Position numbers and translations under genes: made by a program. Shown here piece after piece: positions 953 through 14,470 of a stretch of 21,710 bases of DNA (positions within the stretch are counted from its first letter, which is position 1; each line of letters starts with the position of its first letter). The notes below the pieces were generated by a model. It was not told the origin of the DNA and did not search any database. It saw nothing but the letters and a program-made list of their open reading frames with translations. Source of the stretch: a virus; the IMG/VR virus record IMGVR_UViG_3300009285_002816, positions 1-21,710 of that record. One strand, written 5' to 3'.

Positions 953-1230
953 AATTGTTTTATGCAATGATCGCATTCAGGGTGTATTTTCGGAAGCAAA
1001 TGGCGGGCGTGCGGATTCGATTTGTTTTCTTCACGGAGACAATCTTTAATATTTTTATCAATATCGTTTATCGCTTCGTTGTTATTTTCCAAGTCGACAG
1101 TTTTTTTTGCTTTTTTCAGTTCGGCAAAACATTCTTGCAATTCAATTTTCAGTATTGCTTTTTGCCAGCGTGAATATTTTTTCAGGCAAGGCGGGCAAGT
1201 ACAATTATTCTCATAGCCAATATGTCTCAT
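949..1230 (-). CDS. Hypothetical protein with CxxC pairs at both ends
   Basis: A 93-residue protein whose ATG overlaps the TGA of the helicase gene (ATGA). Two cysteine pairs lie near the termini, CTCPPC at about residues 10-15 and CDHC at about 86-89, separated by a charged, probably coiled-coil helix rich in Lys and Glu (about 20-70). Together the pairs could ligate one zinc and bring the ends together as in a zinc-hook-like or antiparallel hairpin arrangement; that fold is inference. Its position directly behind the helicase suggests a replication accessory role, but no family is recognised. Plus-strand frames here are shadows. Confidence 0.65.
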   Translation of the reverse strand: MRHIGYENNCTCPPCLKKYSRWQKAILKIELQECFAELKKAKKTVDLENNNEAINDIDKNIKDCLREENKSNPHARHLLPKIHPECDHCIKQL

Positions 1231-2102
1231 AGTTGTTTTGTGAAATCAAGTTCTTTTAAATTCACTTCTTTTTTAGTTGCGGTTTCAATCGCTTTGCTTT
1301 GTTCTTCATTCATTTCAGAAGTTTCCCGCGTTTGAAAATCGTGCAAAGTAAAAATACTGCCCATATGCCCCCATTCGTGGCGATTTTTAATCAACTTGAC
1401 ATTCCCTTTGCCTTGTTCCCGATCAATAAGCGAAACAACCGCCGCCCAATCCGATAAGTCGCCGATTGATTTTGAATCTTTAATGTCCATAATGTCCGGA
1501 TCGCCGGAGTTTTTCCGAGTATGAGCTGTAAGCATTAGGGCGATATTATGTTTTATGGTGATTGTTTTTAAAGTTTGAATGCAAAAACGAGTGGAAATAT
1601 CCAAATTGGAAGAAAATAAAAGCGGAACGATAAAATCCAAATTATCCAGAAAAATAACTTTGGCGTTAAATTTGATTTTCGCTTCCACGATCCGATCTTC
1701 TAGCCACTTCAAGTTTTTGTGCGTGTATTGAGCGGGCATACAAAGTAAGTGCGTTTTTTGGGGAAATTGCGGAAAACGGCGAACGACCTGAATATTACCC
1801 ATCTCAAAAGAGAAATAACAAGTTTCAATTCCTTGCTCGCTTAGATTAACCGCTAGGGCAATCCCAAAAGTGGTTTTGCCATTATTAGTATTGCCCGTTA
1901 AAATAGCCAAGTCAGTTTCCTCAATTCCGCCGCCTAGTAAAAAATCAAATCGGTCAAATTTCGTTTTAATCATTATTGGGGGTTGCGCTTGGGCTTGCCG
2001 CAATAATTCTTCGTGTTCAATTATTTGATCTTCGCCTTGATAGTCTAAAAGCCTTTTTTGCATTTCCAGCGAGGTCTCATTTTTTTGCGTTGAATTGTTC
2101 AT
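1227..2102 (-). CDS. DnaB-like replicative helicase domain protein (RecA-fold ATPase)
   Basis: A 291-residue ATPase with the RecA-like core of the DnaB/Gp4 family. Walker A is GNTNNGKT (residues 70-77), SFEM (98-101) matches the DnaB SLEM segment, Walker B is VIFLDNLD (149-156), a sensor-like LTAHTRK lies at 191-197, and DSKSIGDLSDWAAVV (209-223) occupies the place of the DnaB segment that ends in the arginine-finger region. The DnaB N-terminal primase-interaction domain is absent: only about 45 residues precede the core. In a phage replication operon this fits a helicase that unwinds DNA at the fork, perhaps recruited by the upstream initiator-like protein. The start overlaps that gene by 26 nt. 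A single-ring loader or KaiC-like ATPase is the main alternative. Confidence 0.85.
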   Translation of the reverse strand: MNNSTQKNETSLEMQKRLLDYQGEDQIIEHEELLRQAQAQPPIMIKTKFDRFDFLLGGGIEETDLAILTGNTNNGKTTFGIALAVNLSEQGIETCYFSFEMGNIQVVRRFPQFPQKTHLLCMPAQYTHKNLKWLEDRIVEAKIKFNAKVIFLDNLDFIVPLLFSSNLDISTRFCIQTLKTITIKHNIALMLTAHTRKNSGDPDIMDIKDSKSIGDLSDWAAVVSLIDREQGKGNVKLIKNRHEWGHMGSIFTLHDFQTRETSEMNEEQSKAIETATKKEVNLKELDFTKQL

Positions 2103-2784
2103 ATTTTTTTATCCAAGTTGATAATCTCTTTTTAACTTCAAAGGTTTTTTCGCCTTCCCAGCGTTCCGCTTTACCGGACTTTGTTTTTTCCGTCCAATAA
2201 TCAATAAATTTATTTACTTCGTTTTTCGCGGTTTCTTGATTAAATCCGTGGGAGAAAAGATATTCAACGACTTTTTGCTGTTTTTCCGTGTTTCCGCAAA
2301 AGTCCCTCATTTCTTCCGCCGGCGTCAACGATCCGTTTCCTTTAAGGGGCGGGTGGGGAGATTTATCTCCCTCACTCACTATTTCTTTTACTTTCTTTTC
2401 CTTTATAGCATTGCCATCGCATTGCGTTCGCATTGCGTTCGCATTATTCCACCTAACCTTAGCAGAATTTCTTGCGCTTTTAGATTTATTTCTTCGTTCG
2501 TTTAGTCGTCGTAAAACAGCATCAGACCAAAACATTTTTTCATCATATTGAAATAACTCAAAGTCAAAAACTATTGATTTTATTAACTTTTCCTCAACTC
2601 TTAATGCGTTCGCAATGCGACCCATATGCGACAGCAATGCGTACCCATTTTCTTCGTATAACATTTCAATTATGCACCAAAAAATTCCAATACCCGCAAC
2701 TCCGACTTCACCCAGAAGCACTGATTCTAATTTAAGATCGTGGCGGGCGTGATAATCGTGTTGAAAATAATAAGTTTCTTTCAT
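2077..2784 (-). CDS. Replication initiator-like protein (DUF4373/Lin1244-type N-terminal domain)
   Basis: I place the start at the ATG of MKETYYFQHDYHARHD (2784), because the DUF4373/Lin1244 family begins at this motif; a 17-codon in-frame extension to 2835 would run through the structured leader. Residues about 3-95 match the family pattern: YYFQHDYHAR, then GVAGIGIFWCIIEMLYEENG, then SDAVLRRLNERRNKSKSARN with SAKVRW. The C-terminal part (FIDYWTEKTKSGKAERW, EGEKTFEVKKRLSTW) matches the tail of phage replication proteins of this class. Proteins of this type are DnaD/initiator-like and act at phage origins. The gene carries two blocks of 11-bp DNA repeats and overlaps the helicase gene, so initiator, origin and helicase appear physically linked. 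Confidence 0.8.
   Translation of the reverse strand: MKETYYFQHDYHARHDLKLESVLLGEVGVAGIGIFWCIIEMLYEENGYALLSHMGRIANALRVEEKLIKSIVFDFELFQYDEKMFWSDAVLRRLNERRNKSKSARNSAKVRWNNANAMRTQCDGNAIKEKKVKEIVSEGDKSPHPPLKGNGSLTPAEEMRDFCGNTEKQQKVVEYLFSHGFNQETAKNEVNKFIDYWTEKTKSGKAERWEGEKTFEVKKRLSTWIKKYEQFNAKK
2408..2451. repeat. Iteron cluster 1: four 11-bp units inside the initiator gene
   Basis: Units begin at 2408 (GCATTGCCATC), 2419 (GCATTGCGTTC), 2430 (GCATTGCGTTC) and 2441 (GCATTATTCCA, weaker). The 11-bp period is one helical turn and is not a multiple of three, so the repetition is not driven by a repeated peptide. This is the form of initiator-binding iterons. Confidence 0.65.
2601..2644. repeat. Iteron cluster 2: four 11-bp units in inverted orientation
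   Basis: Units begin at 2601 (TTAATGCGTTC), 2612 (GCAATGCGACC), 2623 (CATATGCGACA) and 2634 (GCAATGCGTAC), again with exact 11-bp phasing. The core GCAATGCG is the reverse complement of the cluster 1 core CGCATTGC, so the two clusters face each other across about 150 bp that includes an A/T-rich stretch (about 2530-2600). Confidence 0.65.
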
Positions 2785-2798
2785 ATCATTAAACACAA

Positions 2799-2889
2799 AA
2801 CGCTGATAACTGCCTCCTATCGGTCTTGACGGCATTTCTGCCCCGATATTTAGCGATTATCAGCGTTCTATTTTTAATGGCCGTCAAGA
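2799..2889 (-). promoter_or_regulatory. Structured 5' leader with interlocking inverted repeats (pseudoknot topology)
   Basis: Plus-strand coordinates: AACGCTGATAA (2799-2809) pairs with TTATCAGCGTT (2857-2867), 11 bp; TCTTGACGGC (2824-2833) pairs with GCCGTCAAGA (2880-2889), 10 bp. The order A-B-A'-B' is that of a pseudoknot. An AGGAGG (2818-2813, minus) lies in the connecting loop, and a GGCA-GAAA-TGCC hairpin (2842-2831) would compete with stem B. The element lies between the 2919-2947 promoter and the 2784 ATG, so it is in the mRNA leader of the replication genes. DNA-level operator function is the alternative. Confidence 0.65.
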
Positions 2890-2918
2890 ATTTTGGCATA
2901 AAAATTTATTTCATAATC

Positions 2919-2947
2919 AGTTTAGCATAAATTTTTGTTTATGTCAA
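2919..2947 (-). promoter_or_regulatory. Promoter for the replication genes
   Basis: Leftward: TTGACA at 2947-2942 (perfect -35), a 17-nt spacer, TAAACT at 2924-2919, preceded by TGC. Predicted start is near 2912, leaving a leader of about 128 nt. The design is the same as at 820-858. It overlaps the end of the HNH gene. Confidence 0.65.
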
Positions 2948-3325
2948 TGGATTTTTTACTATAATGATTTTGATAATAAATCCTCGCATATTCTTTGTGT
3001 TTAGTATAATTTTTAGTATAATTTTTTTTTCATAACACGATGAACAAAATCCTTTTCCTCTATGTTTATTATTTGTCTTTTTACATATTACACACTGATT
3101 ATACTTTATTGCCCAAGTAGTTATTTTTTTAGCCCCTCTTTTGTTTTTTTCTAATGAATAATGGCATTTGGCGCAAACTAACATTAAATTCTCTAAATCA
3201 TTGTTTTGTTTAGAAATAGGCAAGCTTGAACCTTGTCCGTCTATATGATGAATATGCATTTTTTCTTTTTTTAAAAAACAAACGCCACACTTATTTTGAT
3301 ATTTTTTAATCACTTTATCTCTCAT
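2939..3325 (-). CDS. HNH endonuclease-like protein, probable frameshift at A9 run
   Basis: Starts at an ATGA overlap with the stop of the 3322-3450 gene. The HNH module is clear: CGVC (about residues 13-16), MHIHHIDGQG (23-32), the Asn region NDLENLMLVC (41-50) and CAKCH (50-54), so the His-Asn-His nuclease fold with its zinc Cys pairs is present. A second zinc module follows (CVIC about 77-80, CSSC about 94-97). After that the reading frame becomes hydrophobic and low-complexity (KKIILKIILN, then IIKIIIVK). Adding one A to the nine-A run at 3022-3030 gives a frame reading YTKHKEYARIYYQNHYSKK and ending at 2922, which looks like the usual basic helical tail of such proteins. Assembly indel, real mutation and slippage are all possible. 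Confidence 0.75.
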   Translation of the reverse strand: MRDKVIKKYQNKCGVCFLKKEKMHIHHIDGQGSSLPISKQNNDLENLMLVCAKCHYSLEKNKRGAKKITTWAIKYNQCVICKKTNNKHRGKGFCSSCYEKKIILKIILNTKNMRGFIIKIIIVKNPLT

Positions 3326-3450
3326 TCCGCCATATATGCGTGATTGGCGCCATAAAGGGTTTTTTTATAAAAATATTTAACATAACAAGCACTGCAACGC
3401 TTGCTGTTTGGCGTATGGCCTTCTCGTTTTTGACAATCAATACAAATCAT
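3322..3450 (-). CDS. Small zinc-knuckle protein, 42 aa
   Basis: I start at the ATG at 3450 rather than an upstream in-frame ATG at 3576, because a consensus promoter (3457-3485) places transcription start at or next to 3450 and the upstream extension would cross the divergent control region. The product begins MICIDCQKREGHTPNSKRCS and has CIDC (3-6) and CSAC (19-22), a small zinc ribbon common in phage and Patescibacteria-like HNH-associated proteins. It is the first gene of the leftward operon and is coupled by ATGA to the HNH gene. A DNA-binding regulatory role is possible but not shown. Confidence 0.7.
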   Translation of the reverse strand: MICIDCQKREGHTPNSKRCSACYVKYFYKKTLYGANHAYMAE

Positions 3451-3456
3451 ATTTAT

Positions 3457-3485
3457 ATAATATATGTTATAATGGAAGATGTCAA
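3457..3485 (-). promoter_or_regulatory. Leftward early promoter, leaderless
   Basis: TTGACA at 3485-3480, a 17-nt spacer, TATTAT at 3462-3457, then six nt to the ATG at 3450. The message is predicted to start at, or within a base or two of, the start codon. Its -35 is an inverted copy of the rightward -35 at 3565 (TGTCAAG against CTTGACA). Confidence 0.75.
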
Positions 3486-3516
3486 GTCTATTTTCTAAAA
3501 AAGATAAAGTCAAGGG

Positions 3517-3529
3517 GGGTGTTATACCC
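3517..3529. promoter_or_regulatory. Operator-like palindrome between divergent promoters
   Basis: GGGT-GTTAT-ACCC lies midway between the two -35 boxes (3480 and 3565), where a regulator could affect both promoters. The arms are only 4 bp, so this is a weak call. Confidence 0.25.
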
Positions 3530-3541
3530 ATTTTCGCCAAG

Positions 3542-3562
3542 TTATCCATAAAGTTATCCACA
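3542..3562 (+). promoter_or_regulatory. Tandem DnaA boxes
   Basis: TTATCCATA (3542-3550, one mismatch) and TTATCCACA (3554-3562, exact) lie in a direct repeat of AAGTTATCCA with 12-bp spacing. They sit immediately upstream of the rightward -35 (3565), so DnaA could act on replication or repress this promoter. Confidence 0.55.
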
Positions 3563-3564
3563 AC

Positions 3565-3592
3565 TTGACAAAGCAAAAATAAGGTTTATAAT
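3565..3592 (+). promoter_or_regulatory. Consensus sigma70-type promoter, near-leaderless
   Basis: TTGACA (3565-3570), a 16-nt spacer, TATAAT (3587-3592): both hexamers are perfect. Start is predicted at about 3599, just before the ATG at 3601. It is the only full-consensus promoter found upstream of the virion block. Confidence 0.85.
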
Positions 3593-3600
3593 AATATTAT

Positions 3601-3645
3601 ATGGCTAAAAAAGTAAAAAAATCCAATAAAAAAGCGAAGAAATAG
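3601..3645 (+). CDS. 14-aa Lys-rich leader peptide ORF
   Basis: ATG at 3601 to TAG at 3643 encodes MAKKVKKSNKKAKK: eight of 14 residues are Lys. A perfect promoter ends 8 nt before the ATG and a strong terminator begins at the base after the stop codon, so the ORF fills the whole short transcript. The layout resembles an amino-acid attenuator leader peptide, although a functional small basic peptide or a non-coding transcript is also possible. A ribosome at the stop codon would cover the 5' arm of the terminator. Confidence 0.5.
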   Translation: MAKKVKKSNKKAKK

Positions 3646-3671
3646 GCGATCTTATTAAGATTGCTTTTTTT
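3646..3671 (+). terminator. Rho-independent terminator / attenuator
   Basis: GCGATCTT (3646-3653) pairs with AAGATTGC (3657-3664) through 8 bp including one G-U, with a 3-nt loop, followed by seven T (3665-3671) and a further T-rich run. It lies about 50 nt after the promoter start and before all virion genes. Confidence 0.85.
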
Positions 3672-3683
3672 ATTTTTAAAAGA

Positions 3684-3741
3684 TGTTTAGTGATAAACAG
3701 TTTCTCGGTTAATAATCACCGGAAGACGCAATAAGCGTCTT
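3684..3741 (+). promoter_or_regulatory. Three consecutive hairpins upstream of the late genes
   Basis: TGTTTA-GTGA-TAAACA (3684-3699, GNRA-type loop), CGGT-N8-ACCG (3706-3721) and AAGACGC-AATAA-GCGTCTT (3723-3741) follow the terminator without a gene. The last is followed by only a short T run. Together with the terminator they form a structured leader of about 100 nt ahead of 3760. Apart from these hairpins, the two promoters, the DnaA boxes and the 14-codon ORF, I see nothing else in the 3451-3759 interval. Confidence 0.5.
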
Positions 3742-3759
3742 TTAGAAATAAAAAACAAT

Positions 3760-4077
3760 ATGAGCGAAGAAGAAATGGAAAAATATCTAAAAAATTTAAA
3801 AATCAGTTTTTTAGAGAGTGATATTATTAAAGAAAGAATGAAATTCCGGCAATTTGGATTCATCAAGATAATGCGCCCTGATTGGATGATAATGGAAATA
3901 AAAATGTATTTTAAATATTCTTTTTTAAAAAGAGTAAGATATGCCGCGCAAATACGAATTGTTTTAATTCTAAGATTTTTCAGAGATTTAAAAATTAAAG
4001 TGCGATATTGGCGGAAATACGGAGAATGGCTTCCCAAATCGCAAAGAAATGTGAATAATAACTATGGCGGAAAATAG
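3760..4077 (+). CDS. Hypothetical basic protein, 105 aa
   Basis: ATG at 3760 follows an A-rich leader ending in acaat, the same leader end as at 11778. The product starts MSEEEMEKYLKNLK and becomes strongly basic and aromatic, with segments such as FGFIKIMRPDWMIMEIKMYF and ending WRKYGEWLPKSQ. No domain is recognised. It is the first gene of the rightward block, two genes before the small terminase candidate, so a packaging or regulatory role is possible. The opposite-strand frame is hydrophobic and A/T-driven and is rejected. Confidence 0.55.
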   Translation: MSEEEMEKYLKNLKISFLESDIIKERMKFRQFGFIKIMRPDWMIMEIKMYFKYSFLKRVRYAAQIRIVLILRFFRDLKIKVRYWRKYGEWLPKSQRNVNNNYGGK

Positions 4078-4091
4078 GAATAAAAAATAAT

Positions 4092-4376
4092 ATGGAAGCG
4101 GTCAACGCAACAGCGGAAATTCCCATTAAATATCAAATGGAAAGGATTGAGCCGATTAAGATTGATGTTGAGTTCATTCGGCACCCCAATACGAATGAGA
4201 TAATTATATTAGCCAGAAAGATAAACGAGATCGTGGAAAAAATAAACAATATGGCAGAAATTCCAGAAAGAAAAAAAGTAGAGGTAATAAATAAGAAATT
4301 GTATGTCGGAGGAAAATCAGTTGAAAAGACCACTCAAGATTATTTTTATAACCCACAGAAAATGGCAGATCAATAA
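4092..4376 (+). CDS. Hypothetical protein, 94 aa
   Basis: Starts at ATG 4092 after an aataat leader and ends 5 nt before the next gene. The product is mixed alpha/beta: an N-terminal IEPIKIDVEFIRHPNTNEII segment, a helix (ARKINEIVEKINNMAEI, about 41-57), then a short strand pair (VEVINKKLYVGGKSV). No family is recognised. Its position before the small terminase candidate is where phages often carry small DNA-binding or packaging accessory genes, but nothing in the sequence demonstrates this. Confidence 0.6.
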   Translation: MEAVNATAEIPIKYQMERIEPIKIDVEFIRHPNTNEIIILARKINEIVEKINNMAEIPERKKVEVINKKLYVGGKSVEKTTQDYFYNPQKMADQ

Positions 4377-4381
4377 ATAAT

Positions 4382-4666
4382 ATGGCTAAATCAGGCGGAA
4401 CTTGGAAAAAAGGACAAAGCGGAAACCCGAAAGGGAAACAAAAAGATCCGGCCTTGGAAGAAGCAAGGCGTTTAATCGCTGACGCCGGTTTATTGTCATT
4501 TGCGATACAAAGAGCAAAAAAGAGCGACCAAGTTTTAATTGCTTTACTGAAAAAGGCCTATCCGGATTTATCCAGCACAGAATTGAAAAGCGCGGCCGAG
4601 GGATTTAAACTGATAGTGGAACAAGGCGGTTACGCTGTAACGAAGAGTGAGACAGACATAACTTAA
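4382..4666 (+). CDS. terS: Putative terminase small subunit (DUF5681-like N-terminus)
   Basis: The N-terminus WKKGQSGNPKGKQKD (about residues 8-22) is the hallmark of DUF5681-type phage proteins, which are often encoded directly before TerL. The rest is helical and charged (LEEARRLIADAGLLSFAI, LIALLKKAYPDL), consistent with an oligomeric DNA-recognition protein. The gene lies 5 nt before the TerL start, which supports the small-subunit role of recognising viral DNA and regulating the large subunit. At 94 residues it is shorter than many TerS proteins. The assignment rests on motif and position, since DUF5681 has no confirmed biochemical role. Confidence 0.6.
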   Translation: MAKSGGTWKKGQSGNPKGKQKDPALEEARRLIADAGLLSFAIQRAKKSDQVLIALLKKAYPDLSSTELKSAAEGFKLIVEQGGYAVTKSETDIT

Positions 4667-11016: not shown

Positions 11017-11277
11017 ATGGCTTTCGCCTCTACTACAACCACTGCCCCGGGACCTGATGTATTGGGTTCTTCCCGTCTTATCTCGGGAACATATACCAAT
11101 GCTGAAACGGATTCGGGCGGCGCAATTTCAACGGGCTTTTCAGTCATTATCGCTTGCGGCGTATTTTCTACAAACGCAATCGGCAATGCAGATCCGAAAT
11201 TCACTGTTTCGGGAGGCACAATCACTGTCGTCACTTCTAATGGAGCGGACGGTTCGTGGTGGGCCATAGGGAGATGA
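11017..11277 (+). CDS. Small virion protein, 86 aa
   Basis: An 86-residue Gly/Ser/Thr/Ala-rich beta protein. The end TVSGGTITVVTSNGADGSWW-AIGR is the strand pattern of small phage head or decoration proteins and of fibre C-terminal domains, and echoes the SWMAIG and NWIALG ends of the 20093 and 19579 products. It is likely a capsid decoration or head-completion protein because it was adjacent to the capsid gene before the HNH insertion. The LAGLIDADG gene begins 3 nt after its stop. Exact role unknown. Confidence 0.6.
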   Translation: MAFASTTTTAPGPDVLGSSRLISGTYTNAETDSGGAISTGFSVIIACGVFSTNAIGNADPKFTVSGGTITVVTSNGADGSWWAIGR

Positions 11278-12476: not shown

Positions 12477-13247
12477 ATGGAAGGAAGAATAATAAAGGTG
12501 GCGATAGGCGTACCGACGAAAGGGACGACTGACGCGCCCGCTTACGACAATCATTTGACGCTTCTGGCGCATTTGGGAAAATTGCAAATCGCCTCGTGGG
12601 CGGGAATAAAAGAAATGGACGGAGAGTATTTTGATTATCCGGACGGCATTAAATTCAAATTCGCTTTAATGACTTTACCCCGAGTATTCCCCGCATTAGC
12701 CAGAGAGAAGATAGCGGAAGAAGCGAAAGAACAGAATTGCGATTATCTTTTCTTCTTTGACGATGATATGATAATGATGCCGGACATATTTGAAAGATTA
12801 TTCAAGCACCGGAAAGATATTGTCGCGGCTCTGGCCTTTTGCCGATTATATCCGTACAATCCGGTTATCTATAATCTGACGAAAGGATATGACGGAGTGG
12901 AGAAAAAAGAATACTATATTAACTTGACGGTTAATCGGTATCCGAAAGACCAATTAGTGGAATGCGACGCGGTCGGTTTCGGAGCGGTGCTGATTGATAT
13001 GAAGCTCTTGGATACAATACAGAAGCCGTGGTTTATGACGACAAGCGGGGCTGGTGAAGATATACATTTTTGTCATTTAGCGGGAAAAGCGGGATTCAGG
13101 GTATTTATGGATACGGCCACCAAGATAGGCCATTTAGGGGAAAGAGAAGTAGTCATCGAGGAAACTTACGAAAAAAATAATACTATTAAAGAAGATCGCC
13201 AAAGAGCGGGCGATGAAAAAAAATATCAAAAAAAGGAAGTATGCTAG
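12477..13247 (+). CDS. GT-A fold glycosyltransferase
   Basis: A 256-residue enzyme. The N-terminal strand KVAIGVPTKG (7-16) opens a GT-A nucleotide-sugar fold, the DxD-type metal motif is FFFDDDM (92-98), the acceptor-side acidic pair lies in GAGEDIHFCHLAGKAG (191-206), and a conserved His follows in KIGHLG (216-221). It would transfer a sugar from a nucleotide donor to an unknown acceptor in the cytoplasm. Its place in a virion block with two other glycan genes suggests modification of phage proteins or host surface glycans. It overlaps the following gene by 7 nt. The last 25 residues are a charged, Lys/Glu-rich tail. Confidence 0.8.
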   Translation: MEGRIIKVAIGVPTKGTTDAPAYDNHLTLLAHLGKLQIASWAGIKEMDGEYFDYPDGIKFKFALMTLPRVFPALAREKIAEEAKEQNCDYLFFFDDDMIMMPDIFERLFKHRKDIVAALAFCRLYPYNPVIYNLTKGYDGVEKKEYYINLTVNRYPKDQLVECDAVGFGAVLIDMKLLDTIQKPWFMTTSGAGEDIHFCHLAGKAGFRVFMDTATKIGHLGEREVVIEETYEKNNTIKEDRQRAGDEKKYQKKEVC

Positions 13248-14470
13248 AACCCATCACGATTTTAATCCCCACATATAATAATTCAGACCAACTGCGGCAA
13301 TGCGTGGAATCAATCCTGTCGTATAACTTTATTCAACCGGCTGAAATAATCATCGTCAATAACGGACAAGCTCCTCTGGCATTTTTATATAAGGATATTA
13401 AAAATGTAAAAGTGTTTACAATGAAAGAAAATCTCGGCTGGGAAGGCGGATTAAAAGAAGGTTTAAAACATACCAAAACAAAATATGTGATGTTTCTGAA
13501 TGATGATGTGTATATCCCGCGATCTTCGTCAAATTGGTTAAGGAATATGGCGCGGGTGCTGGAAACATACAAAGAGGCGGGAGCTATCGGCCCGTCAAGC
13601 AATGTGGTAATGGGACAGCAAAACATATTCAGTCCGCCATTCGTTCAATGCTTTCAAGCGCAATTTCTTATTGGTTTCTGCATTTTATTCAGAAGAGCCG
13701 CACTTGACGATATTGGAGGAGTGGACGACACCTTGCCTGGAGGCGATGACTTTGATTATTCCATACGACTGCGGAAAAAGAACTGGAAAATGATTGTGAT
13801 GAAAGACACTTTTGTTTATCATCACGGCTTTCAGACCGGCAATGTATTGCACGGCGACCATACGGCCAAGAACGGCTGGAACTCTCCCCAAATGACGGAA
13901 AGAACGAATACGGCTATTATCAAGAAACACGGATTTATTGACTGGTGGGAAACGATTGCGCCTCAACCGCTTGGCCATGATGATTTAATACGGGACGCGG
14001 AAGGGGACGAAATACGCGCCCTTGTTAAAGGAAAAGATGTTTGCGAATTGGGAGTAGGTGGTAAAAAGACGATAGAGAACTCTATCGGAGTGGATAGGGT
14101 GAAAAAAGGCGAGATGATTCCGTGGGTCAATCAAATATCAGTGGCGGATGTCGTGGCTGATGTAAGTGGAAAACTGCCCTTTGAAAATTCACAATACGAT
14201 TGCGTGATCGCCCGTCATATTCTGGAGCATTCCCTGGACACTTTAATCACCCTTGCTGAATGGTCAAGGATTATTAAGAAAGGCGGACAACTGATTATTG
14301 CCGTACCGAATGAGAACATTGCCGATAGTATTCCGCTCAACCCGGAACATCTGCACGCTTTTACGCCTGAATCTCTTACCAATTTAGGCTATGCCAATGG
14401 ATTGAAGCCGGTCAAAGCGATTGAGGGGTATAATTCCGTATCATTTATCATTCAATTTGAAAAAGTATGA
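13241..14470 (+). CDS. GT2 glycosyltransferase fused to SAM methyltransferase
   Basis: A 409-residue two-domain protein. Residues about 1-200 are a family 2 glycosyltransferase: ITILIPTYNN (5-14), EIIIVNN (35-41), metal motif FLNDDV (85-90), GGDDFDYSIRLRKK (167-180). Residues about 255-400 are a class I methyltransferase: SAM site VCELGVG (267-273), DVVADVSGKLPF (303-314), YDCVIARHILEH (319-330) and a GGQLIIAVPNE strand (348-358), a family of the Methyltransf_11/23 type. A single polypeptide could add a sugar and methylate it, as in capping of glycan chains. It begins by overlapping the previous gene and ends with TGA overlapping a further ATG at 14467. Confidence 0.85.
   Translation: MLEPITILIPTYNNSDQLRQCVESILSYNFIQPAEIIIVNNGQAPLAFLYKDIKNVKVFTMKENLGWEGGLKEGLKHTKTKYVMFLNDDVYIPRSSSNWLRNMARVLETYKEAGAIGPSSNVVMGQQNIFSPPFVQCFQAQFLIGFCILFRRAALDDIGGVDDTLPGGDDFDYSIRLRKKNWKMIVMKDTFVYHHGFQTGNVLHGDHTAKNGWNSPQMTERTNTAIIKKHGFIDWWETIAPQPLGHDDLIRDAEGDEIRALVKGKDVCELGVGGKKTIENSIGVDRVKKGEMIPWVNQISVADVVADVSGKLPFENSQYDCVIARHILEHSLDTLITLAEWSRIIKKGGQLIIAVPNENIADSIPLNPEHLHAFTPESLTNLGYANGLKPVKAIEGYNSVSFIIQFEKV

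Follow-up and report, generated by a model that had tools for sequence, protein, structure and literature searches.

The initiator gene and its repeats

The window, that is the whole stretch of DNA analysed, is a 21.7 kb phage contig from IMG/VR, and the features discussed here are compiled in Table 1. The 2077–2784 product matched two profiles, Lin1244_N (PF14297; E 4e-10, 40.6 bits versus a curated cut-off of 25) and phrog_2562, ‘replication initiation protein’ (E 4e-19). The adjoining gene for a DnaB-type helicase, which lies on the same strand and overlaps it, places it in a replication module. On the strength of these matches and this neighbour the product is taken to be a Lin1244_N phage replication initiator, as the original prediction had proposed.

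Table 1. Features of the replication region (window coordinates).
Feature	Position	Strand	Remarks
DnaB-like helicase / RecA-type ATPase gene, downstream of the initiator gene	1227..2102	-	DnaB_C 1.5e-9, phrog_19 2e-25
Initiator gene	2077..2784	-	235 aa; Lin1244_N, phrog_2562, AlphaFold model
Purine-rich tract, candidate unwinding element	2380..2404	- (coding strand)	AAAGGAAAAGAAAGTAAAAGAAATA, 3 bp from cluster 1
Iteron cluster 1, linker-coding	2408..2451	-	four 11-bp units, coding-strand consensus AATGCGAACGC
Iteron cluster 2, N-terminal-domain-coding	2603..2646	+	AATGCG-type units at 2603, 2614, 2625, 2636

In the AlphaFold model (pLDDT 84), residues 7–113 form a compact N-terminal domain predicted to be winged-helix-like, a disordered linker spans residues 114–154 approximately, and residues 155–235 make up a helical C-terminal domain. 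A Pfam scan of the protein returned Lin1244_N alone, with no match to the RepA_N domain, and a sequence search of the PDB gave no match. Fold searches gave weak winged-helix matches at best, all with E above 0.001, so we do not claim membership in the RepA_N or DnaD families.

Cluster 1 has its four units at the predicted positions (+ strand starts 2408, 2419, 2430 and 2441). It was detected by Tandem Repeats Finder at 2408–2445 (period 11, 3.5 copies, 92%) as one of two arrays in the whole window. For cluster 2 the number of units stood, but each unit starts two bases later than the predicted 2601, 2612, 2623 and 2634; the unit at 2625 reads TATGCG. The proposed common core, CGCATTGC or its counterpart GCAATGCG, is exact in two of the four units of each cluster, the remaining units being degenerate. 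The clusters had also been described as inverted. This label is weak because the unit is near-palindromic (TGCGAACGCA, GCAATGC/GCATTGC): GCATTGC and GCAATGC do differ, but on the coding strand GCGAACGC points the same way in cluster 1 and cluster 2. Translation of the coding-strand AATGCGAACGC passes through three frames, giving N-A-N-A-M-R-T-Q-C-D-G-N-A-I, so the 11-bp period is indeed out of step with the codons. An Rfam search of positions 1000–4500 gave no match.

Three further features of the window were observed. An imperfect inverted repeat with 37-nt arms (2787–2879), which includes AACGCTGATAA...TTATCAGCGTT, lies just upstream of the initiator gene and is possibly an operator, a terminator or the end of a mobile element. 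A tandem repeat of TTTAGTATAATT (12 bp, 2.2 copies) occupies positions 3000–3026, in the terminal part of a small HNH-type gene. At 13241–14470, one protein joins a family-2 glycosyltransferase domain to a methyltransferase domain.

Replication might instead start in the AT-rich intergenic region near 2900–3600, at DnaA-box-like sites used by the host DnaA. Two such sites, TTATCCATA at 3542 and TTATCCACA at 3554, lie 12 bp apart (3542–3562), the GC content is low, and the GC skew turns near 3 kb. However, the window as a whole has close to the chance number of boxes (strict, 4 versus 2.35 expected; relaxed, 11 versus 5.4 expected). The skew, which had been suggested as a check, speaks neither for nor against, because gene orientation also switches near 3 kb. 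We regard a DnaA-driven origin in this region as very unlikely.

Phasing and covariation at the DNA level

The repeats were evaluated against a null in which the protein is held constant and the codons are redrawn according to the phage's own codon frequencies. Over the whole initiator gene the lag-11 score was 27, a value reached by 6 of 20 000 such recodings, and the control lags 7–10 and 12–15 scored 14–19. The lag-11 signal of the region coding for the N-terminal domain, where cluster 2 lies, was significant by itself (p = 0.005). The two clusters have six 8-mers in common versus 0.51 expected (p = 0.005).

Relatives (loci L003–L183) were found by protein query and by alignment query of viral and genome contigs. 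We tested 84 representatives from Bacteroidota, Bacillota and other phyla, a set that is loosely thinned and not fully independent. Part of the collection used the pattern IKE[KS]K..., which spans the purine tract, and the frequency of the tract in this set is therefore biased. Back-translation of the pattern used all codons, so that the codon-null tests are unaffected. All 52 aligned initiator sequences matched Lin1244_N. A DnaC-like loader gene comes next after the initiator gene in EF62phi and in a Porphyromonas phage, and C-terminal domains of the DnaB_2 type occur in part of the family. The initiator of one relative, L015 (4001–5023), has an extra block inserted in the origin region of its linker, which by eye resembles a GIY-YIG-type endonuclease domain.

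The lag-11 signal of the linker exceeded the protein-preserving null (p ≤ 0.05) in 63 of the 84 relatives, with about zero excess at the control lags 8 and 13; the other 21 linkers had no significant 11-bp excess. Distances between ATGC-type cores are nearly all 11, 22 or 33 bp, with additional half-steps of 5–6 bp, in both clusters and in all three frames. Helically phased repeats under DNA-level constraint are present inside the initiator genes of the window and of most relatives tested.

Cluster 2 belongs to the same system, because 10-mers taken from the linker recur almost only at gene offset 120–239 (286 hits, versus about one per 60-bp bin over the 5-kb locus), which is the position of cluster 2 in the window. 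Each N-terminal region is matched to its own linker: 497 8-mers are shared, compared with 119.6 under the codon null and with a maximum of 345 in 10 000 random re-pairings. Motif classes changing jointly in both clusters are GCGAACGC(A/T)TTGC and GCAAATGC, as well as ACGAACGTATTAC (L006, L007 and L045), ATAACACTGTTA (L163 and L164) and GGGGGGCTATT (L177); besides the GCGAACGC class there is also a ACGAACGT class. In L007, the stretch common to both clusters is translated in different frames at the two places. For the GGGGGCTATT group (L017, L018 and L114), linker repeats are present and a matching N-terminal cluster was not found. Two loci considered as orphan copies of the repeats, L376 (from 236, + strand) and L413 (minus strand), were rejected as such, both being Lin1244_N initiator genes that are readable only with TGA as Gly. 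They carry further iteron motifs of their own, again in both clusters. The outcome that would have spoken against the original prediction, namely relatives in which the protein is conserved and the phasing of the nucleotides is not, is the opposite of what was found: the phased nucleotides are kept or changed together, and the protein follows.

Several repeated DNA signals are generally known from phages, and the arrays could serve packaging, recombination or another purpose unrelated to replication while being housed in this gene. Yet the specificity of the motif tracks the initiator gene and co-varies within it, and Lin1244_N initiator genes are also present on plasmid records. A signal of this kind is extremely improbable.

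The purine tract and displaced copies of the module

On the coding strand, the last iteron is closely followed on its 3′ side by a tract of A-rich AAAGG/AAAGT-type pentamers that encodes KEKKVKE-like residues. In the window, A+T content is 0.76 at 2375–2407; the tract itself is short, and its 5-bp (lag-5) score does not differ significantly from the codon null (p = 0.25). Among the relatives, lag-5 beats the protein-preserving null in 71 of 84. Across the family the tract is 83% purine with an A+T content of 0.76, and it has the least stable duplex of the gene parts tested (dG per bp 1.127 versus 1.183 for the null). An adjacent element of low stability is therefore seen at family level, and more weakly in the window itself. 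Codon choice within the family's tract departs strongly from usage (GTA 79% versus 33%, GGA 86% versus 34%, AGT 69% versus 17%, ATA 76% versus 36%), as if these codons were forced.

Melting had originally been assigned to an A/T block between the clusters. This block exists in the window (70% A+T at 2453–2600, compared with 62% for the gene), but it is not a family feature and was rejected as the melting region, as the inter-cluster DNA of relatives is ordinary (A+T 0.61 versus 0.76 in the tract). The purine tract is the better candidate.

A protein-free query, a degenerate pattern of the tract alone, found 124 places in viral contigs, 93 of them in ORFs that match the initiator profile. Most of the remainder lie in more divergent Lin1244_N proteins or in other phage replication-initiation proteins. 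Scans for AATGCTATAAAGGAAAG and for a second junction pattern placed 122 of 129 hits within initiator ORFs. The hits in L198, L231 and L217 appear fortuitous and were discarded as module copies. AAAGK-type tracts, sometimes after repeats, were also noticed in initiators that have no Lin1244_N match (L342, L407 and L405; phrog_1408 and phrog_2514 types).

The module of iterons and tract also occurs outside the initiator gene. The phage record of L428 (G001), 66 kb long, has a tract and two iteron arrays, some 160 bp from each other, in intergenic DNA from about 31129, with stops in all frames. The linker of the Lin1244_N initiator at 41039 in this record contains neither iterons nor tract and is Pro/Ala-rich. 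The record of L425 (G002) has the same iteron motif plus tract at two places, one within the linker of the initiator (near 11108) and the other free-standing (23284–23312). In L220, a non-coding copy lies between genes that look like virion genes. By their sequence, such copies are natural controls in which the DNA module is found apart from the protein sequence. The free-standing elements of iterons and tract in L425 near 8730 and in L303 near 2326 both follow a small Cys-rich (CxxCxG-like) gene.

These controls bear on two further explanations. One is selection on the protein: if the linker required an Asn/Ala-rich and then a Lys/Glu-rich composition, the DNA repeats would simply follow, and NANAM and KEKKVKE are indeed widespread among the linkers of the family. 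This explanation is largely refuted and retains next to no probability. In most relatives it fails against synonymous-codon nulls, the iterons are found in all three frames, and a change of motif in one cluster is matched in the other, with different amino acids encoded. Moreover, module copies exist in non-coding DNA, and where the module lies outside the gene, as in G001, the initiator has a linker rich in Pro and Ala. The original view that the repeats are no by-product of a protein repeat is borne out by the codon null, the 11-bp spacing across three frames, the covariation between clusters and the free-standing copies; conversely, the linker sequence NANAMRTQCDGNAIKEKKVKE would for the most part result from the DNA signal.

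The other explanation takes the repeats for operator sites bound by the initiator, for autoregulation or as a sink in copy-number control or incompatibility, with the true origin elsewhere. Iterons often serve regulation and origin function alike, the two roles being compatible with each other, and cluster 2 appears to lie nearer the promoter end of the gene. A purely regulatory role is nevertheless unlikely: a melting-type tract follows cluster 1 in most of the family, and the free-standing copies of L428, L425 and L220 pair iterons with a tract away from the gene, for which regulation has no need.

A putative origin within the initiator gene

DNA-level constraint, 11-bp phasing, two co-varying clusters, a constrained tract and separability from the gene were each demonstrated by sequence analysis. 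Taken as a whole, they are best explained if the repeats are an initiator-bound replication origin embedded in the phage's own initiator gene, which we consider highly probable. The original reading of the iterons as a candidate origin was, on constraint, phasing, covariation and separability, largely right.

The winged-helix-like N-terminal domain of the initiator would bind both iteron clusters. As the phase equals one helical turn, bound protomers would line up on one face of the DNA, and they would probably oligomerize or bridge the two clusters. The resulting strain may melt the neighbouring A-rich purine tract, one exposed strand being held by the C-terminal domain of the initiator, by a helicase loader or by both; this in turn would lead to loading of the DnaB-type helicase. 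Binding, melting and helicase loading are proposed here by analogy with lambda (PMC7466680), SPP1 (PMC6316719) and pSK41 (PMC5703833).

Origins within initiator genes of the lambda O, SPP1 gp38 or pSK41 kind are already known. The lambda origin, with iterons beside an AT-rich tract, lies midway along gene O, and replication is blocked by iteron mutations even when these do not alter the O protein (PMC7466680). The arrangement of iterons and neighbouring AT-rich tract within the gene is alike. In contrast to lambda with its one cluster of four iterons, the 11-bp units described here form two clusters, one of them in the sequence coding for the DNA-binding domain; the purine tract of the family has a 5-bp period, and no O-family match was seen for the initiator. 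In SPP1, direct repeats and an AT-rich unwinding element lie in gene 38 (oriL), and a second, free-standing copy, oriR, lies elsewhere (PMC6316719). G002 and L220 show a similar dual or displaced arrangement, whereas the repeat motif differs from that of SPP1 and varies by lineage, and homology to gp38 was not shown.

For pSK41 rep (RepA_N plasmids), four central Rep boxes are bound by the winged-helix N-terminal domain, the origin-encoded linker is dispensable, and the structure is DnaD-like (PMC5703833). The initiator analysed here would resemble it in a linker encoded by the putative origin and in its predicted winged-helix-like N-terminal domain. Differences are that the RepA_N Pfam family is not matched and, as far as the description of pSK41 in that source goes (PMC5703833), that a cluster lies within the DNA-binding domain and a purine pentamer tract is present. 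The unwinding region of Bacillus subtilis oriC contains DnaA-trios and a DnaD recognition element, DnaD binding a TnnT motif (PMC10201434). There, too, short single-strand motifs stand beside double-strand sites, although that origin is DnaA-based and chromosomal. By inspection only, TnnT (PMC10201434) agrees with the T(A/C)CT present every 5 nt on the strand opposite the AAAGG/AAAGT repeats, and we hypothesize that this T(A/C)CT series is a DnaD-type signal.

A broader proposal, put forward tentatively and with somewhat less than an even chance of holding in full, joins these elements. Phage initiators from unrelated N-terminal families would have a common origin grammar: an iteron array particular to the lineage would run straight into an AAAGK pentamer tract, and the strand opposite this tract, with T(A/C)CT every 5 nt, would offer a DnaD-type single-strand loading signal. 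In Lin1244_N, the second array lies in the sequence coding for the DNA-binding domain, so that specificity and both target arrays would be contained within about 450 bp and could be swapped by recombination as one cassette.

In the literature searched, which omits most subscription journals, we found no published origin for the Lin1244_N family; the name DUF4373 came up there in two papers, both, judged by title, on iron in Bacteroidetes/Bacteroides. Nor did this incomplete literature yield a description of a second array in the coding sequence of the DNA-binding domain, of the pentamer tract or of the covariation. The analysis provides a putative origin, and a sequence-based way to find it, for a large and otherwise uncharacterized initiator family that reaches across phages and prophages of Bacteroidota and Bacillota and phages reading TGA as Gly. 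The puzzling low-complexity linker NANAM...NAIKEKKVKE would be explained as a DNA signal translated into protein, and phages with the module outside the gene offer ready-made controls. Origin and recognizing protein appear to travel together, related phages showing matching DNA changes, and with so many motif classes the protein–DNA specificity of the initiator may be readable from covariation.
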